A stretch of 22,223 bases of DNA from a virus. Location of the stretch: positions 1 to 22,223 of the IMG/VR virus record IMGVR_UViG_3300025168_000754. One strand, given 5' to 3'. A program made the translations under genes and the position numbers. The notes under the pieces were generated by a model, which saw nothing but the letters and a program-made list of their open reading frames with translations, did not search any database and had not been told where the DNA came from. Shown here piece by piece: positions 1-22,223 of the stretch (position 1 is its first letter; the number at the start of each line of letters is the position of its first letter).

Positions 1-110
1 GTAGGTCTGCCTTTTACAGTTTTACCTTCGAACTGTCTTTCTCTAGGTTCATCCCATTCTGTTATTCTAGGTTCATCGTCTTTAAAATAATGTTTTATAT
101 AATGTATCAT
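1..110 (-). CDS. Start of an unrecognised phage gene (partial)
   Basis: This is the first 36 codons of a minus-strand gene that runs off the left edge. Its ATG at 110-108 overlaps the TGA stop of the primase gene as ATGA, the coupling expected in a phage operon. The visible protein begins MIHYIKHYFKDDEPR and is charged. It repeats the tetrapeptide DEPR at residues 12-15 and again at about 20-23. No domain can be recognised from so short a piece. Its position just downstream of a primase suggests a replication-associated gene, but that is only context. Confidence 0.6.
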   Translation of the reverse strand, partial: MIHYIKHYFKDDEPRITEWDEPRERQFEGKTVKGRP

Positions 111-1630
111 AATAAATTATCGTTAAAATCAGGCAGGTCGTGTGGCTCATCTTGAGCTTTAAACTCATCTATATGCCACACATTAATACCTTTACCTTTA
201 ATATTGAAAAAGAATGGTTCACCGTTAAGTTGTTTAAGTTTAGATGTTAATCTGTTTCTTTGATATTCTTTAAAATTATTTCTGTGTAAATAATCCATCA
301 AATCTAACAACCTAAAATACGTTTTGCCATTATCTGTCCAAGGTTTATGTAGTAATAGCTCATCTCTTTCTCTAGCAGGTCTTTCTGTACAAAAAGATTC
401 TAACAACTCCATAAAATGACCTTCCGTAGAACTTTCTTTAGGTACTTCTACTATTGTGATAACGTCTAATAACTGTTGTATTATTTGTCTCCACACGTTT
501 TCTTTTACTTTAGGTGGTATTTTATTAAGAGCGTCCATACACTTACGCTGAAACCTGTTTTGGTTTAACAAATCGTCTGTCTCTAACTCTAATCGACCAC
601 CTTCTACATCAAGAAACCATATAGGCGGGTCACTGTCTTGTTTCGTGAGGTTACTAAACAAAGGCGTACCTCCGTTAGCTCCTATACCAAACTTACGTGT
701 TCTACATAAAGGGCTATTACAATGACTAGCTATAGGTTGGTCATTACATTTATAAAAATAATCTTTTCTTTGTAGTTGTTTAGCTACTGTTAATACTTCT
801 TGTGCACCTAATGGAGGTTGCATAAATTTTATATTTACATCCTCTAATCTTTTCTCCCAATCATCTGGAAATTTCTTTCTTAAAAATACACCGACATTAA
901 ACAAACCTGAGTTTCGTGAGCCTTTAGGAAAACCCTGTACTACTAAATGCTGTATACAAGGAGGGGCTTGGTCTAACCAGTCCATAGTTTCTGTTAAAGG
1001 ACTAGCTTCTAATTTTTCTAAATCTTTTGGGTTTAATTCTATTTCTGTACAGTAATTTAAAAACTCCTCAGGAGTTAATGCTGTACCTTCTTTACCGTAA
1101 GCATACCTAGTAGAGTTCTCTCCACCAAAATAAGGCATGTTTAAAGTACTGCCTCTATCGCCACGCTCTAGTAATAATTGTGTTTGTTTAGGAAATATTT
1201 CTGCTTGTCCGTAACCGATAGAAGCTGCTATTTGTCTTAGTTTTCTTTGCAACATAGATGCTGTTATTGGTTCAGTGAGGAATATATAGATATGAGCTCC
1301 GCCACTTTTACTACGACAAAGAACTAAAGGTAGTTTTTGTTTTGCTATTTTTATAGCTAAATCTTTTAAATCTAGCTGATATTCATCAACATCTATAGCT
1401 CCCCATACACAATTATTATGTTCATCTATAGGAACTATACCTACACTTTGACGACCAGACAAATGGTCTTCCCATAACTTTAGTAAGTCGTTATCAGATA
1501 ACTCCTTCGATATAGTAATGTTTTTACCACTTGCCTTTCCATCTTCTCTAGTTTCTTTTGTAGCTGTAAAAGTTCCGTACGCTTGACGTAATCCTGCATA
1601 ACGTGCAGCAAAGTCCTTTGCTAACGGCAT
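107..1630 (-). CDS. TOTE-type / archaeo-eukaryotic (AEP) primase-polymerase
   Basis: This 507-aa protein is probably the phage primase, or a primase-polymerase acting in genome replication. The N-terminal half looks like the TOTE conserved domain of the AEP superfamily. It has a DxD metal-binding motif in AIDVDEY (D80, D82) followed by SKSGGAHIYIF (residues 107-117), whose histidine is the usual nucleotide-binding residue. A cysteine/histidine cluster at C295, H303, C304 and C309, followed by RTRKFGIG, matches the zinc-binding motif downstream of the catalytic core in many AEP primases. The C-terminal third (about 330-507) has no domain I recognise. The gene ends in an ATGA overlap with the next gene and lies 14 bp downstream of the 257-aa gene. 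No DNA polymerase is visible here, so whether it also acts as polymerase is open. Confidence 0.85.
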   Translation of the reverse strand: MPLAKDFAARYAGLRQAYGTFTATKETREDGKASGKNITISKELSDNDLLKLWEDHLSGRQSVGIVPIDEHNNCVWGAIDVDEYQLDLKDLAIKIAKQKLPLVLCRSKSGGAHIYIFLTEPITASMLQRKLRQIAASIGYGQAEIFPKQTQLLLERGDRGSTLNMPYFGGENSTRYAYGKEGTALTPEEFLNYCTEIELNPKDLEKLEASPLTETMDWLDQAPPCIQHLVVQGFPKGSRNSGLFNVGVFLRKKFPDDWEKRLEDVNIKFMQPPLGAQEVLTVAKQLQRKDYFYKCNDQPIASHCNSPLCRTRKFGIGANGGTPLFSNLTKQDSDPPIWFLDVEGGRLELETDDLLNQNRFQRKCMDALNKIPPKVKENVWRQIIQQLLDVITIVEVPKESSTEGHFMELLESFCTERPARERDELLLHKPWTDNGKTYFRLLDLMDYLHRNNFKEYQRNRLTSKLKQLNGEPFFFNIKGKGINVWHIDEFKAQDEPHDLPDFNDNLL

Positions 1631-3636: not shown

Positions 3637-5079
3637 ATGAAATATAAATTTAAAACAACACCATACGACCATCAGTTATTAGCGTTAACTAAATCCTGGA
3701 ATAAGAAAGAGTATGCTTATTTTATGGAAATGGGAACAGGTAAATCTAAAGTTCTAATAGATAATATAGCTATACTTTATGATAAAGGAGGGATAAATGC
3801 AGCAATAGTTGTAGCTCCTAAAGGGGTATATAGAAACTGGTCAGAGAAAGAAATACCTGCCCATATGCCAGACCATATAGAAAAATACATAGGTGTGTGG
3901 ACTCCTAATCCTACTAAAAAACAAAAACATGAATTAATGAAATTGTTTGAGGTAACAGACGATTTAAAATTATTAATAGTAAACGTAGAAGCTTTTAGTA
4001 CTAAGAAAGGTGTAGCTTTTGTTGAAAAATTTATACTTGCTCATAACGTATTAATAGCTGTAGATGAATCAACAACAATTAAAAACCCTAAAGCACAAAG
4101 AACTAAAAATTTATTAAAGTTAGCAGTAAATACTAAGTATAGAAGAATACTTACAGGCTTTCCTGTTACTCAATCACCATTAGATTTATATAGTCAAAGT
4201 ACTTTTTTATCCCCACAACTACTAGGTTACTCATCTTTTTATTCTTTTCAAAACAGATACGCACAGTTGATTAATAGAAATATGGGAACGAGAACTTTTA
4301 GACAAGTCGTAGGTTATCAAAATTTAGAAGAACTAACCACAAATGTAAATGAGTTCTCTTATAGAGTACTAAAGAAAGAATGTCTAGATTTACCCGATAA
4401 GATATATCAAAGAAGAGAAGTAGAATTAACAACAGAACAAAAGAAAGTTTATAAACAATTAAAAGATTATGCTATAGCTGAATTAGATTCACATGAAATA
4501 GTTAGTGTAACCTCAGTACTTACACAAATATTAAGGCTACATCAAGTAGTTTGTGGGTTTGTTAAACACGATAACGGAGAAGAAGTAGAAGTATCGAGTA
4601 ACCGTTTAGATGAATTAATAAATATTTTAGAAGAAGTACAAGGTAAAACAATTATATGGGCTAATTACCAATACGATATTAAAAGAATATTAAAAACGTT
4701 ACATAATATAACAGGAGTAGCAAGTGTAGCTACTTATTATGGTGAAACACCTGATGAAGAACGCCAAGAAATAATAAGAAGATTCCAAGACCCTAACTCA
4801 GAATTAAAATATTTAATCAGTAATACTCAAACAGGAGGTTACGGTATAACACTCACGGAAGCAAGTAACGTAATTTATTATAGTAATAATTATGATTTAG
4901 AAAAACGACTACAGTCTGAAGACCGTGCTCATCGTATAGGTCAAACTAATAAAGTAACTTATATTGATTTAGTTGCTAAAGGAACTGTTGATGAAAAAAT
5001 TGTTAAAGCCCTACGAAACAAATTAGACCTAGCACAAGAAGTACTAGGTGATGAAAAGTGGAAAGACTGGATAGGTTAA
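3637..5079 (+). CDS. SNF2-like DEAD/DEAH-type helicase
   Basis: This 480-aa superfamily 2 ATPase is of the compact SNF2/DEXH type used by phages, probably a DNA translocase or helicase in replication or repair. Walker A is EMGTGKSKVL (K36). The Walker B box reads AVDESTTIKNP (D143, E144), so the DExH box is DEST. ILTGFPVTQSPLDLYSQ (about 171-187) is the motif III region. The second RecA domain carries IIWANYQYDIKRIL, then TGGYGITLTEAS, then the SNF2-characteristic motif VI QSEDRAHRIGQ (arginines 430 and 433) and GTVDEKIVKAL. It is the only convincing plus-strand gene in the window. Its TAA stop overlaps the stop codon of the opposing late-gene operon, leaving no space for a terminator. Confidence 0.9.
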   Translation: MKYKFKTTPYDHQLLALTKSWNKKEYAYFMEMGTGKSKVLIDNIAILYDKGGINAAIVVAPKGVYRNWSEKEIPAHMPDHIEKYIGVWTPNPTKKQKHELMKLFEVTDDLKLLIVNVEAFSTKKGVAFVEKFILAHNVLIAVDESTTIKNPKAQRTKNLLKLAVNTKYRRILTGFPVTQSPLDLYSQSTFLSPQLLGYSSFYSFQNRYAQLINRNMGTRTFRQVVGYQNLEELTTNVNEFSYRVLKKECLDLPDKIYQRREVELTTEQKKVYKQLKDYAIAELDSHEIVSVTSVLTQILRLHQVVCGFVKHDNGEEVEVSSNRLDELINILEEVQGKTIIWANYQYDIKRILKTLHNITGVASVATYYGETPDEERQEIIRRFQDPNSELKYLISNTQTGGYGITLTEASNVIYYSNNYDLEKRLQSEDRAHRIGQTNKVTYIDLVAKGTVDEKIVKALRNKLDLAQEVLGDEKWKDWIG

Positions 5080-5783
5080 CGCATACCTTTTAAAAGTTTT
5101 GAAAATTTTTCAGCATCAGACAATATCATAGAATCTCTGTCAGACATACTTCTTCCCGTTTGAGTTCTAGCTTTATCAGCATTTTCATAAAATGAAGCAG
5201 GTATATTTTCACCTGTCATTTTTTGAAACAAACTCGGTATCATTTTAAGGTCTGCATCTGATACACTTCTTCCCGTTTGACCTTGTAAGCTTTCCATAAT
5301 CATTTGTCTTAACATATCAGCATCGGATAAAGACCTACCACTTTCAGCATACATAGGTCCACCCATATCTTGATACATAGGTCCACCCATATTGTAATCT
5401 AATGGTCCACCCATATTAGCGTACATTGGTCCACCGTTCATAGCCATTTGAGGTTCTTGACCACCACCTTCAGCAGCAGACATTAACATAGCTTTAGCGT
5501 TATCTAAAACAGCAACAGCCGCAGGAATATCACCTTTAGCTCTACCTACAACAGCTTCGGCTAACATCATAGCGTCTTGTTCTATGTTCATAGGAGCTTC
5601 TTCCATAGGTGATTCTCCTTGCATAGCTATTTCACCCATTCCTGGTTCAGGCATTGAAGGTCCACCCATTGAAGGTCCACCCATTGAAGGTCCACCCATT
5701 GGTGGTTGCGGTCCACTCATTGGTGGTTGCGGTCCACCTTGTGGTAGTCCTGCTATTCCTGTTAATCTTTCATTAGGGTCCAT
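5076..5783 (-). CDS. Repetitive Gly/Pro/Met-rich virion-associated protein
   Basis: This 235-aa protein is the last gene of the leftward virion module. Residues 14-50 are short GGPSM and GPQPPM repeats. Residues 117-148 are four 8-residue repeats of the MGGPMYxx type. The C-terminal 90 residues carry three copies of a sharper motif: SGRSLSDADM (148-157), TGRSVSDADL (170-179) and TGRSMSDRDS (209-218). A related sequence, QTGRTLSDKDL, is found in the 587-aa protein upstream. Segment TGENIPASFY (190-199) resembles TGQEVPPSFY in the 1167-aa protein. These shared motifs argue for a role in the same particle, but no family is recognised. An ATG after GGAGAT supports the start, and the stop overlaps the helicase stop. 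Confidence 0.65.
   Translation of the reverse strand: MDPNERLTGIAGLPQGGPQPPMSGPQPPMGGPSMGGPSMGGPSMPEPGMGEIAMQGESPMEEAPMNIEQDAMMLAEAVVGRAKGDIPAAVAVLDNAKAMLMSAAEGGGQEPQMAMNGGPMYANMGGPLDYNMGGPMYQDMGGPMYAESGRSLSDADMLRQMIMESLQGQTGRSVSDADLKMIPSLFQKMTGENIPASFYENADKARTQTGRSMSDRDSMILSDAEKFSKLLKGMR
5349..5435 (-). repeat. 24-bp tandem repeat inside the 235-aa gene
   Basis: The core GGTCCACCCATAT (plus-strand reading) recurs at 5356, 5380 and 5404 and in shortened form at 5428, an exact 24-bp period. A 20-bp stretch is identical between the first two units. The array encodes four 8-aa units of the MGGPMYxx type. Strong nucleotide identity suggests recent slippage or expansion. Confidence 0.8.
5652..5738 (-). 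repeat. 15-bp and 21-bp tandem repeats inside the 235-aa gene
   Basis: CATTGAAGGTCCACC is repeated three times at 5652, 5667 and 5682. It is followed by two near-identical 21-bp units at 5697 and 5718. They encode GGPSM-type and GPQPPM-type repeats. The near-perfect DNA identity points to recent expansion. Confidence 0.8.
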
Positions 5784-5785
5784 AA

Positions 5786-7018
5786 TTATCTCCTTGGTCG
5801 GAATCCCGCTTGGAATACCTGTGTTGTCATTGTATCACCTTGTTGACTTTGAGGCAACCTCATGATACCGTTATTATTTATTCCTCCACCTGCATTTAAT
5901 CTATATACAGGAGGTGGAACTTGTGGTGGTTTAGGTGGAAGTTTTCTTCCTCCGCCGTCATCTGGTAATTTTGGTAACTTTATAGGTGGTGGTGGCTCGA
6001 ATCCTGGAGCTGAACCAAATAATCTAGGGTCCATAGCTCTTGACCTATTAAAAGGCATTGCTCCACTATCCGTTGCATATGGTGTATACGCATTATTTAT
6101 TGGCTTCCCTGTATACGGATTTATAGGTCCACTAGGTCCACTAGGTCCACTTTGCGGCGGTGGAACGTACGGCGGTTCTTCAGGCGGAACGTACGGCGGG
6201 TCTTCAGGCGGGTCTTCAGGAGGCATATACGGAGGCGGCACTTGTGGTGGCGGTGGTGGTGGCTCATCTGGTGGAGGAGGTGCATCGGGCGGTGGTCTTC
6301 TTCTTGGAGGTGGCGTAAACGGCGGCTCTTCTATTGGTGGCTCAAACGGAGGTGTAAACGGCGGGTCTTCTCTAGGAGGTGTAAACGGCGGCTCATCTCT
6401 ATCTCTTGGAGGTGGAAACGGTGGTCTAAACGGTGGTCCGTCTATTGGTGGCACATCTCTTGGAGGCTCAAACGGAGGATATTCTATTGGTGGTTCAAAA
6501 ATATATGGATTTCCAGGAGGAGGTGGAGGTGTATAAATAGGTGGTTCGTCTACAGGAGGTGGAGGCGTAAATATAGGGTCTTCTCTAGGAGGTGGAGGCG
6601 TAAATATAGGGTCTTCTCTAGGAGGAGGAGGTGGCGTAAATATATCTTTAAAAGGATTTTTAGGAGGTGTAAATATAGGTGGCTCATCTCTAAAAGTTGG
6701 GGGTGGTGTAAATATAGGTTCTTCTTCGAACACGGGAGGCTGTCTAAAGGAAGGAGGGTTTATATTCATTTTAGGTTCTGGTGGAAGTAAAGAAGCCAAT
6801 CCTTGTTCTTTTTCCGTAGCCGCAGTGCTTTTAAAATCAGCAACATCAGCTTCGTACTGGTCAGTAGCGTTTTTTATAGAATCATTAGCTTCTTTTCTAG
6901 AAAGTATAGCGTCTACAATAGGGTCGTTTTGTAAAGATTCATAATCAAAAGACATAGGTGTTGTACCTGATACGCCTCTAATACCCATTCCTCTATCAAA
7001 ATCAAATCCTCTTGCCAT
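5786..7018 (-). CDS. Extremely proline-rich virion-associated protein
   Basis: This 410-aa protein has a central segment (about residues 70-300) that is almost entirely short proline-rich repeats such as FTPPPPPREDP, PPFTPP and EEPPYVPP, with regularly placed acidic and aromatic residues. Such sequence should form extended polyproline-II rods. The N-terminal 65 residues are ordinary and charged. A GPSGPSGP stretch near 290-300 is collagen-like, and the C-terminal 110 residues include PDDGGGRKLPPKPP. The overlap with the 1167-aa gene is a single base (TAATG). Its position among putative ejection proteins suggests a virion or assembly scaffold role, but no family is recognised. The Gly-rich and Arg/Trp-rich open frames on the opposite strand are artefacts of its biased codons. 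Confidence 0.65.
   Translation of the reverse strand: MARGFDFDRGMGIRGVSGTTPMSFDYESLQNDPIVDAILSRKEANDSIKNATDQYEADVADFKSTAATEKEQGLASLLPPEPKMNINPPSFRQPPVFEEEPIFTPPPTFRDEPPIFTPPKNPFKDIFTPPPPPREDPIFTPPPPREDPIFTPPPPVDEPPIYTPPPPPGNPYIFEPPIEYPPFEPPRDVPPIDGPPFRPPFPPPRDRDEPPFTPPREDPPFTPPFEPPIEEPPFTPPPRRRPPPDAPPPPDEPPPPPPQVPPPYMPPEDPPEDPPYVPPEEPPYVPPPQSGPSGPSGPINPYTGKPINNAYTPYATDSGAMPFNRSRAMDPRLFGSAPGFEPPPPIKLPKLPDDGGGRKLPPKPPQVPPPVYRLNAGGGINNNGIMRLPQSQQGDTMTTQVFQAGFRPRR
6554..6645 (-). repeat. 33-bp tandem repeat in the proline-rich gene
   Basis: A 33-bp unit beginning AGGAGGTGGAGGCGTAAATA (plus-strand reading) starts at 6554 and 6587, with a diverged third copy at 6620. It encodes the 11-residue repeat FTPPPPREDPI. 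Many shorter degenerate copies extend across 6150-6720. Confidence 0.75.
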
Positions 7019-14767: not shown

Positions 14768-14874
14768 TAAAACCTACTCCTAGTTTTTATCTTTTTTCCT
14801 TTAGACGTGTATATAACAAAACCAGAACGGCTTTGTGCTTTTTTCTTATAAATCTTTTTGTTTACTCCAACCAT
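14767..14874 (-). CDS. 35-aa basic protein, first ORF after the late leader
   Basis: This small gene was found by reading the gap between the cyclase and the virion module. ATG at 14874-14872 is preceded by AGGAAA about 4-9 nt upstream. The ORF encodes 35 residues starting MVGVNKKIYKKKAQSRSGF and very rich in Lys and Arg. It stops in a TAATG overlap with the 342-aa gene. A good ribosome-binding site, perfect coupling and marked basic character make it likely to be real. It resembles the other tiny basic proteins at 20709-21379 in character. It may bind nucleic acid, or act mainly as a leader ORF that couples translation of the virion operon. Confidence 0.6.
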   Translation of the reverse strand: MVGVNKKIYKKKAQSRSGFVIYTSKGKKIKTRSRF

Positions 14875-14910
14875 AGTTTTCCTGCGTTATCTTAACGTTT
14901 TGCGAGTTAA

Positions 14911-14942
14911 AGCTCACCCCGTAAGCTGCAGCACAATAGCTG
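14911..14942 (-). promoter_or_regulatory. Two adjacent hairpins in the virion-operon 5' leader
   Basis: In the minus-strand transcript, AGCTTAC and GTGAGCT pair across a GGG loop (14911-14927; 7 bp including one G-U). Just upstream, CAGC and GCTG pair across a 6-nt loop (14929-14942). The segment is clearly GC-richer than its surroundings. It lacks a proper U-run, so it does not look like a standard intrinsic terminator. It lies in a leader of about 70 nt between a candidate promoter and the 35-aa ORF. An RNA stability, processing or attenuation element is possible; I recognise no known riboswitch. Confidence 0.4.
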
Positions 14943-14950
14943 ATACATTG

Positions 14951-14980
14951 ATTATATATCAAAAAGTATATATTTTTAAA
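14951..14980 (-). promoter_or_regulatory. Candidate sigma70-like promoter for the virion module
   Basis: On the minus strand, TTTAAA (14980-14975) and a perfect TATAAT (14956-14951) are separated by 18 bp. The -35 matches consensus at four of six positions. The promoter overlaps the last codons of the cyclase gene and would start transcription near 14944, about 70 nt before the first ORF. This is the only sizeable gap on the minus strand between 5076 and 22223, which supports a transcription boundary here. Confidence is limited by AT-richness. Confidence 0.4.
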
Positions 14981-16692
14981 GCTTTTTCTTTACCTTTTAC
15001 TTTCATAGGTTTTAAAGGTTTAAGAACAACACCGCAATATTTTTCTGTTTCTTCACCAATAAGTATATTTACACCCGCTTCTTTAGTAGCTGATTCTAAT
15101 CTAGCAGCTGTATTTACTGCGTCTCCAATAGCTGAATAATCAAACCTTGTATCGCTTCCCATATTACCAATAACAGCTTCTCCTGTATTTACACCTACTC
15201 CAATAGCTACCCCAATATCTGCTTTTATTATATTTTCTTGTATTTCTTTAGCACACTCTACCGCTAATTGTTCGTGATGTAATAAATCCATAGGAGCATT
15301 AAAAATAGCCATCATTGCATCACCGATAAATTTATCAACCATTCCTCCTCGTTTTTGTACACACTCTACTTGTACAGTTAATGCTTTATTCATTATTTCG
15401 GTAACTTCTTCAGGAGGTAACGTTTCAGATAATGCTGTAAACCCTCTGACGTCTGTAAATAAAAAAGTACATCTTCTTTTTTCACCACCTAGTTTTAATA
15501 AATTTGGATTCTTTTGTAATTGTTTAACTTGTCTAGGGTCAAGGTAATGTTCAAATTGTTTCTTAATTTGTTGTCTTAATTTATATTGTTCTCTAAACCT
15601 TAAATAGAAAGCTATAGCTCCTGTAATAAACTGAGAAATTAAAGACCAAGTAACATCTATTAAAACACCTGTAGTTATTGTGTAATAACCGTAGGAAGCC
15701 GTTAAAGCCGACGTAAGTAAAGCTAAACCTAACCCCCACGTTATACCTAAATAACTTATAAAAACCCATACGAGCCCTACAGACGCTATAAAAATAAGAA
15801 GTTCTAAAGCTAAAGCATAATCTGGTATATACGGACTATCTTGTATAAGTATTGACTCGGCTAGTGCTGCTTGTATTTTATGAGGTTCAAGTAATCCTAC
15901 AGGTGTAGCAATTTGCGGCATGACTCCGTTAGCAGTAACACCTACAAATACAAACTTACCGTTGACTTCCATTTCTTGTAAATCTGTTTCTGGTGTATCT
16001 ACCCATGATATCCATTTACGACCAAGACTATCTGTTTTAACAGGAGGGATACCGCGTATAGCTATTTCTTGTATACCGTTATCGTTAGTAGTAATAATGT
16101 AAGTTTTAACACCGAACAATGCTTTATATATTTGCGTACCGAAAGAAGCTACCCAACCTTCAGGAGTTCTTAACAGTAAAGGAACACGTCTAACTAATTG
16201 GTCTACTTCGGTGGGAGCACTGGCGATTCCTTGTAATATATTTTCGTAGGTGTAGAAATTTTCCTTGACTCCCTTAGTAAGTATACCACCAACATCATTA
16301 CCTTTTATAACAGTTCCTGTAGTTTTAGGATACTCTCCGCTATTAGTTTCAAACATAGCTAATACACTAGGAGCATAACCTAAAGACCTAGCAAATTCTT
16401 CATCCCCCATAAGTCTATCGGGTTGTGGAAAACTAATTACCCAACCAACACCTAAAGCTCCTTTGCCTAATATATCAAGTTGTATATCAGCTAATCTTTT
16501 TCTAGGTAACGGATACCCTCCTTCACGTTCAACGTCTTCTTCTGTTATATTAAGGATAACAAAGTTACTAGAAGGCTTTTGTTGTTTTACAAAAGTATCA
16601 AATGTTTTTAATTTAATTATTTCTGTAGGCGTTGATTGAAATAATAAAGGTAATACTAATAAAGGTAATACTAATATTATTAATTTTTTCAT
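14959..16692 (-). CDS. CHASE2-domain class III adenylate/guanylate cyclase
   Basis: This 577-aa inner-membrane sensor cyclase is predicted to make cAMP (or cGMP) in the cytoplasm in response to an envelope signal. An N-terminal membrane anchor (residues 4-19) leads into a periplasmic CHASE2 domain (about 25-285). That domain shows LVRRVPLLLR, GKFVFVGVTANGV and the ATPVGLLEPHKIQAALAES region typical of the family. Three membrane helices follow at about 293-312, 315-337 and 343-365. The class III catalytic domain (about 405-577) keeps both metal aspartates (D414 in FTDVRGF, D458 in KFIGD), K454 and D518 (in RFDYSAIGD), which suit adenine binding, and the transition-state pair N527 and R531 in NTAARLE. 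All key residues are present, so it should be active. It starts at a TAATG overlap with fecR. Adenylate is favoured over guanylate specificity, with moderate confidence. Confidence 0.92.
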   Translation of the reverse strand: MKKLIILVLPLLVLPLLFQSTPTEIIKLKTFDTFVKQQKPSSNFVILNITEEDVEREGGYPLPRKRLADIQLDILGKGALGVGWVISFPQPDRLMGDEEFARSLGYAPSVLAMFETNSGEYPKTTGTVIKGNDVGGILTKGVKENFYTYENILQGIASAPTEVDQLVRRVPLLLRTPEGWVASFGTQIYKALFGVKTYIITTNDNGIQEIAIRGIPPVKTDSLGRKWISWVDTPETDLQEMEVNGKFVFVGVTANGVMPQIATPVGLLEPHKIQAALAESILIQDSPYIPDYALALELLIFIASVGLVWVFISYLGITWGLGLALLTSALTASYGYYTITTGVLIDVTWSLISQFITGAIAFYLRFREQYKLRQQIKKQFEHYLDPRQVKQLQKNPNLLKLGGEKRRCTFLFTDVRGFTALSETLPPEEVTEIMNKALTVQVECVQKRGGMVDKFIGDAMMAIFNAPMDLLHHEQLAVECAKEIQENIIKADIGVAIGVGVNTGEAVIGNMGSDTRFDYSAIGDAVNTAARLESATKEAGVNILIGEETEKYCGVVLKPLKPMKVKGKEKALKIYTF

Positions 16693-17807
16693 TAATCACT
16701 TTGAGTAATAGTAATAATACTATCACTTCCTCCGTTAACTTTAATTATATTAGAAACACCATCTTGTATCAAAATAACAGTATAAGCTTCACTACCGTTT
16801 AAATCAACACGAACACTTTCATTAACCTGTCTTCTTAGACTAATAACGTTTCCTGTTATTAAAGCTGTTATTTGTGTATCGGGGTCTTTACCTAATAGTG
16901 TGCCTGTTATTTGTGTACTAGTAGCTTGGGCGAGGGCATCTTCTTCTTCTGCTATAGCTAGTGCATCTAATACATTAAGCAAATCTTCTAAGTAATTTAC
17001 ATCAAGGTAATTTATATCTAATTCTGTAAACTCTAAATCGTCACCTGATAAAAAATCTTCAGCTAAATAATCTATATCTAAATCATTAAAATCTAGTATA
17101 TTAGCTTTTTTAGTTGTTACTTCTTCTTGTATTATTACTTCTTCTTTCGGTGGCGTAACAATTAACATATTATCAATCATGTCTAAAGTTAAATCTAATA
17201 TTACAGGTTTACTAGGTGCTGATTCAAATACGCTTACTGTAGTTGCTTCATAAGGTTTATTTAATAAAACGGTTCCCATAGCCGTAACTACCTCTATCTC
17301 ACCACTAGATAAACCAAAAGCATCAGGAAGAAGTATTATCAATGACCTGCCTAATTCATCTACAGTAGCTGTAAAATCAGTTCCACGAATTGCTATATTC
17401 GCTGTAGGAGTTCTAAGTTCTATATTTTGTTTATCTATACGGTTTAGATTGCCAGTAATAAACCGTGCTGTCCCAAGACCAAAGGTAAGAGCCATTTTAG
17501 ATTTGCTTGGGTCAGGGTCGTAAATGTATTCATCTATAAGCAGTTGTGAGTGTTCGGTTAATTTTACTACAGAGTCATCAAGAAATCTAATAGCCATTCT
17601 GCCATTAGTAGTTATAGCTTCATCATTACTTTGAATAGAGAATTTTAAATTTGCTTTGTAAGGTTTATCTCTTACTATTTGAGCTGAACCATTTAGTTCA
17701 GATATATCTCCAATATCAGCAGCTTGTGCTTGTACCTTGGTCGTTTTGAATGACGCACACAGTAGAAGAAGCATTGCCGCCAATTGATATAATTTTAAGC
17801 CAGTCAT
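16692..17807 (-). CDS. Periplasmic FecR-domain protein with curlin-like C terminus
   Basis: This 371-aa exported protein has a signal peptide (LAAMLLLLCASF then KVQAQA, likely cleaved near residue 29). Residues about 62-150 form a classic FecR domain: ITTNGRMAIRFLDDSVVKL, then ALTFGLGTARFITG, then TPTANIAIRGTDF. Residues 220-290 are strongly acidic with pseudo-repeats DIDYLAEDFL and DINYLDVNYL. The last 30 residues contain ILIQDGVSNIIKVNGG and end in SIITITQSD. This follows the curlin pattern QxGxxN (Q348, G350, N353) and suggests a curlin-type beta-strand unit. The ATG at 17807 lies 92 bp inside the curlin-like gene in a different frame. An internal ATG at 17774 is an alternative, but the longer start gives a better signal peptide. 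FecR genes next to CHASE2 cyclases suggest a periplasmic signalling pair; the direct link is inference. Confidence 0.85.
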   Translation of the reverse strand: MTGLKLYQLAAMLLLLCASFKTTKVQAQAADIGDISELNGSAQIVRDKPYKANLKFSIQSNDEAITTNGRMAIRFLDDSVVKLTEHSQLLIDEYIYDPDPSKSKMALTFGLGTARFITGNLNRIDKQNIELRTPTANIAIRGTDFTATVDELGRSLIILLPDAFGLSSGEIEVVTAMGTVLLNKPYEATTVSVFESAPSKPVILDLTLDMIDNMLIVTPPKEEVIIQEEVTTKKANILDFNDLDIDYLAEDFLSGDDLEFTELDINYLDVNYLEDLLNVLDALAIAEEEDALAQATSTQITGTLLGKDPDTQITALITGNVISLRRQVNESVRVDLNGSEAYTVILIQDGVSNIIKVNGGSDSIITITQSD

Positions 17808-18447
17808 TATCTTGTGTACTCAGTTGTTGAATATTAAATGTTCTTTGTCCGCCTGTATGGTCTAACCAAAAATATCCACCTGCTGAAGCATTAACACCAG
17901 TACCTGTATAATTTACTGTATTATCAGAACCATCTATATCCATGTAATTGGTTGCTCCATCTATATTAATATTTGATGTAACTGTGTTATTAGAGCCTTG
18001 AATAATCCAGTCAAGATTAAGAGAAGCTGCTATTGCGGTAGTACCTTGATTTAAAGTAAATGTATTGCTACTGCCTGTAACTGCTACGTTTTGGTCAGTA
18101 CCATCTGAGCTATAAGTATTAGTTGGGTCTACTTGTATAGTAAAAGAATTAGTACCGCCCGTAAAATTATATAAACCTGTAAAAGTGTCAGCGTATATAT
18201 CACCTAAAAATTTATTAGTTGCACCAATCATATTAATATCGAGTGTCATAGTAGTGCCGTCTAAATCAAATGCAGTTAAAGACCCTGGAGTAGAATTTAA
18301 ACCACCTATAATATTTGATATGCCTAGTTGTTCTAAATCTATGTTAGCTCCAGCACCTGACTGGTCAACATATATCTCGTTGTCCGCTGCGTATAACGGA
18401 AATAAAGCAAGACATAGCAATAACTGTATGTACCTGTTCATCATCAT
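17716..18447 (-). CDS. Curlin-like secreted fibre protein
   Basis: This 243-aa protein has a clear signal peptide (RYIQLLLCLALFPLYA, cleavage near residue 20-21). The mature N terminus reads IYVDQSGAGANIDLEQLG, fitting a curlin repeat with Q29, G31, N35, Q40 and G42. The rest is Asn/Thr/Ser/Gly-rich beta sequence with spaced SNTFTLNQG, SNNTVTSNIN and SDNTVNYTG units, as in divergent curlins of marine bacteria. It ends with two cysteines (VCVIQNDQGTSTSC). It begins 4 bp after csgG and is the natural substrate candidate for that pore. Three consecutive ATG codons (18447, 18444, 18441) are possible starts. Curlin assignment rests on repeat character, export signal and neighbours. CsgA and CsgB roles cannot be separated, so no symbol is given. 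Confidence 0.78.
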   Translation of the reverse strand: MMMNRYIQLLLCLALFPLYAADNEIYVDQSGAGANIDLEQLGISNIIGGLNSTPGSLTAFDLDGTTMTLDINMIGATNKFLGDIYADTFTGLYNFTGGTNSFTIQVDPTNTYSSDGTDQNVAVTGSSNTFTLNQGTTAIAASLNLDWIIQGSNNTVTSNINIDGATNYMDIDGSDNTVNYTGTGVNASAGGYFWLDHTGGQRTFNIQQLSTQDNDWLKIISIGGNASSTVCVIQNDQGTSTSC

Positions 18448-18451
18448 AATC

Positions 18452-19288
18452 TCATTCTACCTTGTTTTCTTGTTTTTGTAAAACCCAGTAACCTTTATCA
18501 TATCCTAGATTAACTATTTCTAAGACACCACCTTCTATAGCCTTCATTAGTGCTATAGTCGATGACTCGTTTCTAGCGTTGCCTAACTCTATTTCTACTA
18601 ACTCTGTATTAGCCTCAATAAACCTAAACACGTCTTCAGATTTACCGTAACTAAATATAGTTTTTTGACTCAGCACTTCTAACAATACCTCACCCGTAGC
18701 TACAGAAACCATTCTTAAAGAAACTGTTATATTATCTTCTCTATACTGTACGCTACTACCGATACCAAGATACCTAGCTCCTATACCTCCAGATTCTAGG
18801 TTAGCTTCATAAGATATAACAGCACCTTCTATTAAAATACCAGCAAATAATAATGGTGCTAATTGTTTTTTCTTTTCTTCCTCTGTTGCAAATTTTTCTC
18901 TAGCTGACCTGATAAGCTGACGTTCTTTTGTAAGATTGTCAAGACCAACCCTTTCTACAACTCTAAAGAACTTTCCATTACCTGCATGTTTTAAAGCTCG
19001 TATAAGCAATGCATTCGGTTGTTGGGTTATAACACTACTGAATAAAGCAAACTCGCTATTACTTTTTCTTTGTCCTGTTTGGTCTGTAAAAGATGTTGGG
19101 TATACAGCAACAACAGGACTAACGGTAGGTACTGCTGCGTTCTTTAATTGTTTAGACTGTAAATCTTGAATAGATACTACGTCGTGTTTTTTAAACCTTT
19201 GTTCGTATGTATCTTCTCGTTGGTCAAGTATAGAACAACTAGAAAGTAAAAGTACCAATAGGTATTGTGATTTCTGTAACTGTGCCAT
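18452..19288 (-). CDS. csgG: CsgG-type curli secretion pore lipoprotein
   Basis: This 278-aa protein aligns along almost its whole length with CsgG, the outer-membrane lipoprotein that forms the nonameric curli export channel. It has a lipoprotein signal peptide with lipobox LSSC (C18). It also has VAVYPTSFTDQTGQRK, KFFRVVERVGLDNLTKERQL, GGIGARYLGIGSS, VSLRMVSVATGEVLLEV and GVLEIVNLGYDKGYWVLQ, each with a clear counterpart in E. coli CsgG. In the constriction-loop region the sequence is EFALFSSVITQQ. The phenylalanine corresponding to F56 appears kept, while the preceding Asn seems replaced by Leu. The ATG at 19288 sits 50 bp inside csgF in another frame, which is needed to supply the signal peptide, with GGA as a weak ribosome-binding site. 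No csgE is visible. Confidence 0.93.
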   Translation of the reverse strand: MAQLQKSQYLLVLLLSSCSILDQREDTYEQRFKKHDVVSIQDLQSKQLKNAAVPTVSPVVAVYPTSFTDQTGQRKSNSEFALFSSVITQQPNALLIRALKHAGNGKFFRVVERVGLDNLTKERQLIRSAREKFATEEEKKKQLAPLLFAGILIEGAVISYEANLESGGIGARYLGIGSSVQYREDNITVSLRMVSVATGEVLLEVLSQKTIFSYGKSEDVFRFIEANTELVEIELGNARNESSTIALMKAIEGGVLEIVNLGYDKGYWVLQKQENKVE

Positions 19289-19754
19289 CTGCTTCCGTTA
19301 TCTTTAGCGTTAATGTAACACCATCACTAGTATATTCAATAGTGTTACCTTCTAGAGTTATTGTACCTGAAGACGAGGGTGTTTCTCCAAACAGGTTGTT
19401 TACCAACTGTCTGGATAGTTCGGCATAGACTCGTGATTCTAAGTTCCTCATGAATCTAGCTAATGTACTGTTTTCTTTTTCTCGTTCTATTTCATCTTGT
19501 AAAGCTTTTATTTCTTCTTTAATAGTTAACTTACGACTAAACTCTTGGTTCTCAATTGTAAGGTAATGAGATGATGTTCCTATACCGTTAAAGCTAGGGG
19601 ATTTAAATTTATGAACTATTTGGTCAGCTTTAAGGTTTTGTACAAATATGCCTATAACTAAAGCTAAACCTACAGCGATAACAAACCATGCTATTCTAGT
19701 CTTTTCTAGTTCTTCTTCTATTGCTTCTTGTGTTGTTAATTTCTTTTTAGCCAT
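19239..19754 (-). CDS. csgF: CsgF-type curli assembly factor
   Basis: This 171-aa protein resembles CsgF, which plugs into the outer mouth of the CsgG pore and couples secretion to nucleation. After a hydrophobic export segment (AWFVIAVGLALVIGIF) the mature part begins DQIVHKFKSPSFNGIG, matching E. coli CsgF TMTFQFRNPNFGG. The C-terminal portion (LESRVYAELSRQLVNNLFG, then TDGVTLTLKI-like and DGTVTEITIPIG) matches the CsgF C-terminal region. The start at 19754 (MAKKKL) is preferred over the upstream ATG at 19790 because AGAGGG lies 7 nt before it and the preceding gene stops 10 nt upstream. A roughly 20-residue charged cytoplasmic extension (TTQEAIEEELEKTR) ahead of the signal segment and a longer central charged helix (about residues 72-105) are unlike E. 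coli CsgF. Confidence 0.87.
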   Translation of the reverse strand: MAKKKLTTQEAIEEELEKTRIAWFVIAVGLALVIGIFVQNLKADQIVHKFKSPSFNGIGTSSHYLTIENQEFSRKLTIKEEIKALQDEIEREKENSTLARFMRNLESRVYAELSRQLVNNLFGETPSSSGTITLEGNTIEYTSDGVTLTLKITEADGTVTEITIPIGTFTF

Positions 19755-19764
19755 TATAAACCCT

Positions 19765-19956
19765 CTAATGTATAACTCTTTCTTCAACATCTTCTTCGAT
19801 ATTAATATCTAAAATACCTACTACAATTAAACCAATCATATCAGCTTCCCATTCGGCTTCTTCTAAAGTTTCAGCATAAATCATAGGTCCATTAAAAACT
19901 TTATTGTTTACTTTAAACTCTGTTGTAAAAATTTTTTTAGTCTTTACGTTGGTCAT
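19765..19956 (-). CDS. Small unrecognised phage protein
   Basis: This 63-aa protein starts MTNVKTKKIFTTEFK and ends in an acidic tail. The central YAETLEEAEWEADMIGLIVVG suggests a beta-strand and helix fold seen in short hypothetical proteins of marine phages. There is no signal peptide and no convincing membrane helix. It overlaps the holin-like gene by 20 bp and stops 10 nt before csgF, so it marks the junction between the lysis genes and the curli cassette. Function unknown. Confidence 0.55.
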   Translation of the reverse strand: MTNVKTKKIFTTEFKVNNKVFNGPMIYAETLEEAEWEADMIGLIVVGILDINIEEDVEERVIH

Positions 19957-20287
19957 TGCGGTCCGCCTTTGCTATTCTATCTGTATTCATAAGTTGAGGT
20001 ACTCCAAGTATAGTTTTTAATAAAGTGTCTTGTCTGATAATTTCATTATCTACAGACCTAACTCTATCTATTAAAGCTACTAAAATACCATGTTGTGAAT
20101 CTAATTTCTGACCCAACCTTTCTTCTATTTGAGCTATTTGTGCTGATACTTTTTCATCAAGTACATCTACTTTAGTTTCCATTCCGTCTATAATTTTATT
20201 AATAAGTTTCCAAATAAATAAACCTAAACCGATTGCTGCTGCTATAGGAAAGCCAACTTCATTAATTAAAGTAACTACCGAATCCAT
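19937..20287 (-). CDS. Holin-like protein: one membrane helix plus coiled coil
   Basis: This 116-aa protein has one N-terminal membrane segment (GFPIAAAIGLGLFIWKLI, about 12-29). A long charged coiled coil follows (about 33-90, with EKVSAQIAQIEERLGQKLD) and the tail is hydrophilic. This architecture resembles BhlA/UviB-type holins and some phage spanin-like proteins. Proximity to a lysozyme gene supports a lysis role, but the same shape occurs in other membrane-anchored phage proteins. It ends overlapping the 63-aa gene by 20 bp and begins at a junction with the nuclease gene stop. Function is inferred from topology and context. Confidence 0.55.
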   Translation of the reverse strand: MDSVVTLINEVGFPIAAAIGLGLFIWKLINKIIDGMETKVDVLDEKVSAQIAQIEERLGQKLDSQHGILVALIDRVRSVDNEIIRQDTLLKTILGVPQLMNTDRIAKADRNDQRKD

Positions 20288-20709
20288 CAGATTACTGGTT
20301 CAAACTTACCGAGTTCAATTAGTTTTTCTCTATTAATTAAATGTTCTGCTTCAACATCATCTTTAGATTGACCAAAATAAGCTACTGCTAAAAACTTCTT
20401 TATCATAGCTTCGTTTATATTTAAACCATCTACAACAACGTTCCCTAAAACTCTACCATACTTACCTCTGGAGTCTTTTAGTTTAGTTTGAATAATAACT
20501 TTAGAGCCGTTTTCTACAGCTTCTTTTAAAAAAGCCGAAGCCATTTTCCCTCTAGCTTTTTCATCTAAGTCACGAGTACGTGACTCAGGAGTATCAATAC
20601 CGTATAGACGAACACGAGACTTAAACATAATATCAAATCCAAGATTTAATACAACATCAATAGTATCTCCATCAACGACTCTATCAACTTTACAACTATA
20701 CTCATACAT
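20287..20709 (-). CDS. Staphylococcal-nuclease-type (SNase/thermonuclease) endonuclease
   Basis: This protein of about 140 aa is of the SNase family, a calcium-dependent nuclease of the OB-fold type. The catalytic set is visible: DRVVDGDTIDV (metal Asp), RVRLYGIDTPES (Arg, Asp and Glu of the active site) and GKYGRVLG (second catalytic Arg). No signal peptide is present, so it should act in the cytoplasm, perhaps on host or nicked DNA, or after lysis. The ATG at 20709 forms a TAATG overlap with the upstream gene. In-frame GTG codons at 20715 and 20721 are alternatives and lie closer to the AAGG ribosome-binding site, so four extra N-terminal residues are possible. Confidence 0.88.
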   Translation of the reverse strand: MYEYSCKVDRVVDGDTIDVVLNLGFDIMFKSRVRLYGIDTPESRTRDLDEKARGKMASAFLKEAVENGSKVIIQTKLKDSRGKYGRVLGNVVVDGLNINEAMIKKFLAVAYFGQSKDDVEAEHLINREKLIELGKFEPVI

Positions 20710-21002
20710 TAGCACTTCCACCTTTTTCTTGCTTGTCGCAATCTTGAGTTTGGGTCTTTAGCAGCTTTAGGAAACTTTTTCATTTGTCCTGCAGACCTAG
20801 CACAATAAGACTTTCTTCTTTTAGCTGCTTTACTTCCTTTTTTAACTTTACCTGTAACTGCTGTTTTTAATTTACTTCCTGGATTTTTTCTTTTATAAGC
20901 GGCAACTCCTTTTTTAGTCATTCCCGCCCCTGATTTAGTCTTTCTATAATTACCACCTTTACCTGTGGTTCGTCTTATAGATTTTTCTTTTTTCCTAGGC
21001 AT
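20709..21002 (-). CDS. Lys/Arg-rich conserved phage protein (DUF6321-like)
   Basis: This 97-aa protein is highly basic. It contains the pattern GAGMTKKGVAAYKRKNPGSK, then KAAKRRKSYCARSAGQMKK, then KDPNSRLRQARKRWKC. I recognise this as a small conserved phage protein family, probably DUF6321, of unknown function. Three cysteines (in SYCARS and the terminal WKC region) and the charge suggest nucleic-acid binding or a capsid-packaged basic protein. It is joined by one-base TAATG-type overlaps to the genes on both sides, inside a run of three Lys-rich genes between lysozyme and nuclease. Confidence 0.75.
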   Translation of the reverse strand: MPRKKEKSIRRTTGKGGNYRKTKSGAGMTKKGVAAYKRKNPGSKLKTAVTGKVKKGSKAAKRRKSYCARSAGQMKKFPKAAKDPNSRLRQARKRWKC

Positions 21003-21190
21003 TAGGCTTTCTTTTTGGGTTTTTTAGCTGTCTTAGCAGAACGTTTAAAAGCAGCTGCGGTAGGAGCCCCTTTAGCTCCTTTTTTACGCATCTTTTTTCC
21101 TTCCTTGCGTTTTTTGTTTATATTGTAATAAAGACCTTTTCTAGCAGTTCTACCGTCTTTAGTTTTATGTGTTTTCTTTTTTGCTGGCAT
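21002..21190 (-). CDS. Small Lys-rich phage protein
   Basis: This 62-aa protein is about one-third lysine. The ordered part is KTKDGRTARKGLYYNINKKR, followed by a histone-like tail of KKGAKGAP and AKTAKKPKKKA repeats. Similar short proteins accompany the 97-aa type in marine phages. DNA binding or condensation is plausible from composition, but no function is known. The ATG at 21190 has GGAG about 6 nt upstream, and the stop overlaps the next gene start by one base. Confidence 0.65.
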   Translation of the reverse strand: MPAKKKTHKTKDGRTARKGLYYNINKKRKEGKKMRKKGAKGAPTAAAFKRSAKTAKKPKKKA

Positions 21191-21205
21191 TTTTTCTCCT
21201 ATGTT

Positions 21206-21379
21206 TTAAACTTTTTTTCTAGCTTTTTTCTTAGCTGTTGTACTTAATTTACTAAAGTGAAATAGCTTTACACTATTTTTACCGTGAGTTTTACCTGAGT
21301 GTAAAGTACCGTTAGGCATTTTATGAGAACCTCCTTTATGAAGGGTACCGTCTTTTTTGTAATGTTTAACACCTTTCAT
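21206..21379 (-). CDS. 57-aa His/Lys-rich phage protein
   Basis: This gene was found by reading the gap between lysozyme and the 62-aa gene. ATG at 21379-21377 is preceded by AAGGAG, an ideal ribosome-binding site. The 57-residue product begins MKGVKHYKKDGTLHKGGSHK and repeats the unit DGTLHKG / NGTLHSG (residues 10-16 and 23-29). It then continues into a basic helical tail ending KKKARKKV. Histidines are regularly spaced in the N-terminal half. Short proteins of this type occur in marine phage genomes. A metal- or nucleic-acid-binding role is possible but unproven. It directly follows the lysozyme stop without terminator. Confidence 0.7.
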   Translation of the reverse strand: MKGVKHYKKDGTLHKGGSHKMPNGTLHSGKTHGKNSVKLFHFSKLSTTAKKKARKKV

Positions 21380-21380
21380 T

Positions 21381-21824
21381 TTATTCTCCTTTTAAAACCC
21401 TATCTTTCAATCGTATAGCTCTGGGACCTACTTGTATAGCCCAACGACTATCTAACATTTCAACTGCTGCTTTATCCCATTTATGTTCTTCCATAGCTTT
21501 TAAGAATTTTTTAAATTTTAACAACCTTGTTATACCTAAATTAAAACACATATTAGCCATAACTCTTTGTAAATCTTCAGGTAAATCTTTCCACCATTCC
21601 ATATTTCTATCTAAATCATCAATAACGTTTTGAATATCTTTTTCAAAACATTCTGTAATTCTTTCTTTAGAAACAGGAGTATCTACTACTTGTCCATGTT
21701 CAGGGTCTGTTTCTAATATTAAATGCCCTATACCAAAAGTCGGGTACCCTAAATGGTCTAAGTATATTTTATCAATACATCCTTCATCAAAAGTTAATTC
21801 GTCTTGTAATTTAGTCATATCCAT
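21381..21824 (-). CDS. T4-type lysozyme / endolysin (GH24)
   Basis: This 147-aa muramidase should cleave peptidoglycan at lysis. The GH24 catalytic triad is visible in the order E-D-T: TFDEGCIDKIYLDH followed by LGYPTFGIGH matches the T4 lysozyme arrangement. FNLGITRLLKFKKFLKAM and WAIQVGPRAIRL match conserved C-terminal regions. The open frame extends upstream to 21986, but the start at 21824 (MDMTKL) is chosen because AAAAGGGG lies 7 nt upstream, the extension overlaps the 108-aa gene, and the protein then has the normal family length. No signal peptide is present, so a holin would be needed; a candidate lies at 19937-20287. Confidence 0.9.
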   Translation of the reverse strand: MDMTKLQDELTFDEGCIDKIYLDHLGYPTFGIGHLILETDPEHGQVVDTPVSKERITECFEKDIQNVIDDLDRNMEWWKDLPEDLQRVMANMCFNLGITRLLKFKKFLKAMEEHKWDKAAVEMLDSRWAIQVGPRAIRLKDRVLKGE

Positions 21825-21835
21825 AATATCCCCTT

Positions 21836-22162
21836 TTATAATATTTCTATTATTGTATCTCCACCAGTTGATACACTTATTTGTCCAAGAGACATAGTTC
21901 CCTGAACTCCTTTTTCTGTTCCTGAATAAATATCTACCCATTTTGTTCCTGTCCAAAGTTGTAATTGTTGAGTTGCTAAATTCCAAATAATATCGCCAGT
22001 ATTAAATTGATTAAGGTTCCTTTCAGTTTCATTAACGTTTACAGTTGAACCAATATTAACTTTATTTAAACTTAATTCTAATACTCTAACTAATCTGTTA
22101 AAAAGTTCTGGTGAAAGAGGTCCTATAGCAACAGGTAATTTAGTTTCTAGTAATTTACCCAT
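21836..22162 (-). CDS. Small virion-like phage protein
   Basis: This 108-aa protein begins MGKLLETKLPVAIGPLSPEL. It carries the segment IIWNLATQQLQLWTGTKWVD (about 58-77), a pattern I associate with small phage structural or fibre-associated proteins. The C terminus is Gly/Ser/Thr-rich and beta-prone. There are no membrane segments. The start is a TAATG overlap with the gene entering from the right, and the stop lies 11 bp before the lysozyme start. A virion role is a guess from context. Confidence 0.6.
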   Translation of the reverse strand: MGKLLETKLPVAIGPLSPELFNRLVRVLELSLNKVNIGSTVNVNETERNLNQFNTGDIIWNLATQQLQLWTGTKWVDIYSGTEKGVQGTMSLGQISVSTGGDTIIEIL

Positions 22163-22223
22163 TATCTTTTACCGTCAGGTTGTACCGTTATACGAGTTGC
22201 TCCTGCTCTAAAACTCATACCTA
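22162..22223 (-). CDS. C-terminal end of an unrecognised gene (partial)
   Basis: This is the last 19 codons of a minus-strand gene entering from the right edge. They read GMSFRAGATRITVQPDGKR and stop in a TAATG overlap with the 108-aa gene. It is too short for any assignment. Frame continuity and coupling support that it is coding. Confidence 0.55.
   Translation of the reverse strand, partial: GMSFRAGATRITVQPDGKR

Follow-up and report, generated by a model that had tools for sequence, protein, structure and literature searches.

The window analysed here, an entire viral record of 22,223 bases, carries on its minus strand an open reading frame of 577 codons (14959..16692, with its ATG at 16692 and its stop at 14959), whose 577-amino-acid product was classified as a CHASE2-class III adenylate cyclase on the basis of the reading frame, Pfam, an AlphaFold model and Foldseek. 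The CHASE2 domain (residues 12-302; 15787..16659, minus strand) was recognised by Pfam with an E-value of 1.5e-23 and a score of 84.1 bits against a family cut-off of 26.3, and the Guanylate_cyc catalytic domain (residues 406-571; 14980..15477, minus strand) likewise scored far over its cut-off (E 7.2e-19). Hydrophobic segments were found in the sequence at residues 1-23 and 289-326, and the AlphaFold model, which is confident (mean pLDDT 88.9), contains helices at residues 293-340 and 348-380. The CHASE2 domain thus adjoins both membrane helices and an output domain, in keeping with membership of its family, and would form a periplasmic sensor between the N-terminal helix and the next membrane helices. 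Foldseek paired the cyclase part with class III cyclases in the PDB, such as CyaB 3r5g (target-normalised TM 0.82). The original prediction of a complete membrane sensor cyclase on a phage was therefore confirmed by the reading frame and both domains. An assembly accident was ruled out, since a separate contig, L371, independently carries a near-identical stretch (99.5% identity across window 14795-22223).

Inspection of the catalytic domain revealed the two metal aspartates (D414 and D458) and the transition-state Asn and Arg (N527 and R531) that mark class III cyclases, as well as K454 and D518. The metal aspartates and the N527/R531 pair had been predicted to be kept, and they are also invariant in window-type copies. 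K454 had been correctly singled out as well, though its proposed pairing with D518 did not hold. In adenylate-type class III cyclases the adenine-selecting pair is either Lys with Thr/Ser, the class IIIb pattern, or Lys with Asp. The selecting position lies 7 residues ahead of the catalytic Asn; it is Thr in solved adenylate cyclases and S520 here, and in ungapped alignment S520 matches the Thr of Pseudomonas aeruginosa CyaB 3r5g, bPAC 5mbg and Spirulina CyaC 1wc1. Across 81 window-type sequences this position holds Ser (n=37) or Thr (n=44) and nothing else, and in a separate sample 9 of 59 copies, intact in other respects, have Ala in place of D518. Judged from the alignments and from conservation, then, the adenine-selection partner of K454 is S520, not D518. 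Because K454/S520 fits class IIIb adenylate cyclases, the product is predicted to be cAMP in preference to cGMP, which narrows the earlier 'cAMP or cGMP' to its first half.

The cyclase closes an operon of five genes, all on one strand, in the order CsgF-CsgG-curlin-FecR-cyclase, so the suggested tie to curlin production is borne out at the genomic level. CsgF (19239..19790, minus strand; Pfam E 6.1e-16) is followed by the CsgG curli secretion pore (18452..19288, minus strand; Pfam E 4.9e-46), by a curlin-like fibre protein in the CsgA/B position (17716..18447, minus strand), assigned by position and by homology to annotated curlin genes with no Pfam curlin match above cut-off, and by a FecR-domain protein of 371 amino acids (16692..17807, minus strand; Pfam FecR E 2.6e-9, model and Foldseek), whose stop codon overlaps the cyclase start (TAATG). 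Among relatives' contigs long enough to judge, FecR lies directly upstream of the cyclase in 55 of 57, and curlin, CsgG and CsgF were found in 46/47, 41/42 and 38/39, respectively; L004, probably a bacterial contig, is counted among the misses. Nucleotide identity to many relatives is about 80-85% and is bounded near window 14777 and 19657-19670, and the structural proteins outside the cassette share just 32-61% identity with relatives. Since the nucleotide matches start and stop at its edges, the curli cassette behaves as an exchanged module. Upstream of CsgF lies a holin-like membrane protein of 116 amino acids (19937-20287, minus strand; phrog_4898, E 1e-4), and a phage lysozyme (21381-21986) is also located upstream of the operon. 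No kinase domain was detected by Pfam in the genes preceding CsgF, the holin-like gene included. As a side observation, in L246 the FecR and cyclase genes are separated by an additional ORF (1694-2857) that by eye looks like a DNA cytosine methyltransferase.

The FecR-domain protein has a single, signal-like N-terminal hydrophobic helix (residues 3-20) with the FecR domain immediately after it, and its periplasmic FecR fold was confirmed by Pfam and by Foldseek matches to PupR and to a putative anti-sigma factor. Neither the model nor the sequence contains a cytoplasmic anti-sigma segment ahead of the membrane helix, making a role as an iron anti-sigma regulator unlikely; this working label was corrected, as was that of the adenine-selecting residue. 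The C-terminal tail (16695..16817, minus strand) is curlin-repeat-like, as judged by conservation and by beta strands in the model: it has two Gln-ending strands 21 residues apart, and it is conserved in phages and Caulobacteraceae; in the 43 sequences compared, Q369 never varies and Q348 hardly does. By analogy with curlin, this tail could couple the FecR protein to the fibre or to the CsgG pore. In Campylobacterota, most CHASE2 cyclases are found together with a FecR-domain protein (PMC9239204), and outside curli operons 8 of 20 alphaproteobacterial CHASE2 cyclases have a FecR gene nearby, a proportion that led us to reject the notion that FecR accompanies every CHASE2 cyclase. Gene neighbourhoods of this kind suggest that FecR and CHASE2 may form a sensor pair.

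A phage-borne cyclase as such is not new, and one at the end of a curli operon is of a kind already known, having been annotated in HTVC008M and Melnitz and described within a cluster (PMC9599517). That study reported CsgF, CsgG, CsgA/B, FecR and an adenylate cyclase (its 'AC') in HTVC023P-type podoviruses and pelagimyoviruses, found the cluster to be expressed in metatranscriptomes and of alphaproteobacterial origin, and described the cassette as widespread in marine phages. The genes and order of this pelagiphage type VIII secretion/curli cluster match those seen here, with two differences: the cluster has a second curlin between FecR and the cyclase that is missing in the present record, and a histidine kinase reported always directly before CsgF, where here a holin-like neighbour without a Pfam kinase domain is found. 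In HTVC008M, gp019 ('adenylate/guanylyl cyclase', NC_020484) is a full-length CHASE2 cyclase with 34% identity and the same catalytic residues, located after CsgF-CsgG-curlin-FecR-like genes and separated from FecR by an extra curlin-like gene. Melnitz EXVC044M (MZ577097) has the same operon, again with a second curlin-like gene, and its cyclase is 29% identical, with Asp at position 520, Ser in place of the catalytic Asn and ~100 additional, mainly C-terminal residues. A further likeness, compared by description only, is to Sinorhizobium meliloti CyaD1, CyaD2 and CyaK, which also join CHASE2 to a class III cyclase; in the portion of PMC13001267 drawn on here, these sense via an outer-membrane partner, NsrA, and act via the bacterium's own CRP-type receiver, Clr, and no curli link is described. 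What the present analysis adds is the near-universal retention of the cyclase, the dN/dS figure, the bacterial operon counterparts and the Melnitz-type active-site changes.

The cyclase has about 600 viral relatives, and among the 80 closest, gathered by a cyclase-anchored search, five catalytic residues were kept in all; the metal aspartates, K454, N527 and R531 were kept in 81/81 window-type copies. As searching with the cyclase favours intact copies, we gathered curli-bearing viral contigs by FecR or CsgG instead, and in this cyclase-blind sample, of which 147 contigs were long enough to judge, the cyclase was intact in 142, interrupted in 1 and absent in 4. All 92 window-type copies of the blind sample again kept the metal aspartates, K454, N527 and R531. 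Across its 142 intact cyclases D414, K454, D458 and R531 were always present, and N527 was replaced by Ser in 22, each from the set gathered with the Melnitz CsgG. Melnitz-type copies of the cyclase-anchored set have Asp at 520 and Ser at 527 in 78 of 79 cases. Related phage copies with degraded sites, the outcome named in advance as refuting the original prediction, were therefore not found in this lineage: window-type copies were intact in both samples, but the Melnitz type has S527/D520. This paired change, Asn to Ser together with Asp at the adenine-selecting position, is branch-wide in the Melnitz type (L003 8917-10968, loci L165-L244).

The cyclase is under strong purifying selection, with a dN/dS of about 0.10: by the simple NG86 count method, the median over 66 window-type pairs (88-99.5% identical and mutually non-independent) was 0.098, that of the cyclase domain alone was 0.068, and the window gave 0.111 against L024 and 0.096 against L014. 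Taken with the Pfam E-values and the viral relatives, this figure excludes a chance ORF, and a pseudogene was rejected likewise, given the Pfam domains and the intact copies in the cyclase-blind sample. The phage cyclase is thus real and, as far as its residues can tell, probably active as an enzyme. It is not strictly required, since four curli contigs with enough sequence are without it and one has it interrupted.

The same arrangement, CsgF-CsgG-curlin-FecR-CHASE2 cyclase, was found on a 705-kb contig of Hyphomonas TMED17 (L251) and on two Caulobacteraceae MAG contigs (L248 and L254), whose cyclases are 33-35% identical to that of the phage and which, unlike the phage record, have a cellular gene context. 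Several other candidates were discarded: the Acinetobacter 'phage' hits H7/H8 were not accepted as phage evidence, as isc and mfd genes aboard their contig make it probably bacterial, and L245-L247, L249, L250 and L252 (Pelagibacter, Neomarinimicrobiota, Maricaulis and Flavobacteriaceae MAGs) were not accepted as bacterial copies, these contigs being short, with several showing phage-like genes or placed amid phage cyclases by the tree, and hence taken as probably viral. When a quick tree was rooted on the non-curli cyclases, every curli-linked cyclase, whether from a phage or a bacterium, fell into a single clade separate from the other CHASE2 cyclases. The branching order of the bacterial-curli, window-type and myoviral groups was unsettled both in this tree and in a larger one, and a nesting of podovirus cyclases inside myovirus copies was not reproduced in these thinly sampled trees. 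These data indicate that, in some Alphaproteobacteria, FecR and the cyclase are part of the curli operon itself and are not a phage addition.

Considering these findings, we favour the reading, to which we assign a probability of roughly 0.6, that a class IIIb membrane adenylate cyclase and the upstream FecR-fold protein make up the sensory part of a curli (type VIII secretion) operon carried by the phage. This reading builds on the gene content and order, the intact active site, the purifying selection and the clade shared with bacterial curli cyclases, all of which were observed. In the proposed mechanism, the FecR protein would be exported, and its curlin-like tail would meet curlin or the CsgG/CsgF pore; this contact would alter the periplasmic CHASE2 domain, and the change would pass through the membrane helices and the long helix that follows to the cyclase, which, by analogy, would work as a homodimer. 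cAMP would then be made once fibre export reaches a given state, most likely to feed back on the making of curli or on the infected cell's envelope state.

Among 147 genomes from the family presumed to include the host (that of MAG G001, titled Candidatus Pelagibacter; completeness unreported), class III cyclases occur in 2, each 3-4 kb from csgG, and the cNMP-binding domain PF00027 in 9. Of the PF00027 proteins inspected, two full-length ones carry what look like FNR-type N-terminal cysteines, and others match weakly within long proteins. Nor did 20 viral records, made up of the window, six relatives of 41-63 kb and 13 others including HTVC008M and Melnitz, give any PF00027 match, and a PF00027 receptor of the phage's own was rejected on these grounds. 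With the domain rare in the presumed host family and absent from these viral records, the cAMP output appears to be unread by any recognised receptor; either the actual host is not the presumed one, or the receiver is of a different kind, and folds other than PF00027 may bind cAMP. A tentative extension, in our view doubtful, is that the phage brings a second-messenger loop to hosts lacking both a class III cyclase and any recognised cAMP receptor, with an undescribed phage- or host-encoded receiver and a curli-export checkpoint. The role of cAMP in a SAR11-type cell, and the control of a phage-made fibre, thereby become a testable question, made concrete by a cyclase that is almost universally kept and strongly selected though the presumed hosts appear to be without cAMP receptors.

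The same scarcity weighs on the idea of a more general reprogramming of the host, also part of the original prediction and taken here to mean that phage-made cAMP drives a host CRP-type regulon independently of curli. Such a role would agree with the conserved active site and with the use of the CRP-type Clr by S. meliloti CHASE2 cyclases (PMC13001267); however, a recognised cAMP receptor is missing in almost all presumed host-family genomes and in the 20 viral records, the full-length cNMP-binding proteins inspected are FNR-like, and the cyclase gene is nearly always locked to curli genes, so we regard it as unlikely. That the gene is a passenger, having arrived with a bacterial operon and been retained through linkage alone, might be argued from the bacterial contigs with the same operon and from the curli phages without a cyclase, yet it is made improbable by a dN/dS of about 0.10, invariant catalytic residues and 142 intact copies out of 147 in the cyclase-blind sample.

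Nor do we find it at all probable that the enzyme is a guanylate cyclase, or cyclises some other nucleotide, with host signalling or nucleotide-based immunity as its target. The nearest Foldseek and phmmer matches do include the guanylate cyclase Cya2 2w01, but Cya2 has Glu at the position of the invariant K454 and Gly at position 520, where the window-type copies have Ser or Thr, which disfavours a guanylate cyclase identity; interference with nucleotide-based immunity, as once proposed, is unsupported, with no immunity gene or context seen. Scarcely credible is a part in lysis timing, another of the early suggestions, in which the cyclase would relay envelope state to lysis genes: the mere proximity of the holin-like and endolysin genes upstream of the operon speaks for it, no mechanistic link does, and myoviruses carry the same cyclase beside tail/baseplate genes. 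The sensory end of a curli operon thus remains our preferred reading.

As to the phage itself, its helicase and primase match the HTVC023P-type lineage, the best helicase matches being to HTVC023P-type phages at 47-56% (023Pt_psg01, HTVC027P and HTVC023P), and two structural proteins match none in the phage collection. Adjoining the structural genes are a very proline-rich protein (window 5786-7018, minus strand), for which no Pfam or PHROG match was found, and a glycine/methionine-rich protein (5076-5783, minus strand). The primase (window 107-1630, minus strand) carries an AEP-TOTE-type domain (Pfam E 2.1e-12) common to HTVC023P-type and other phages.
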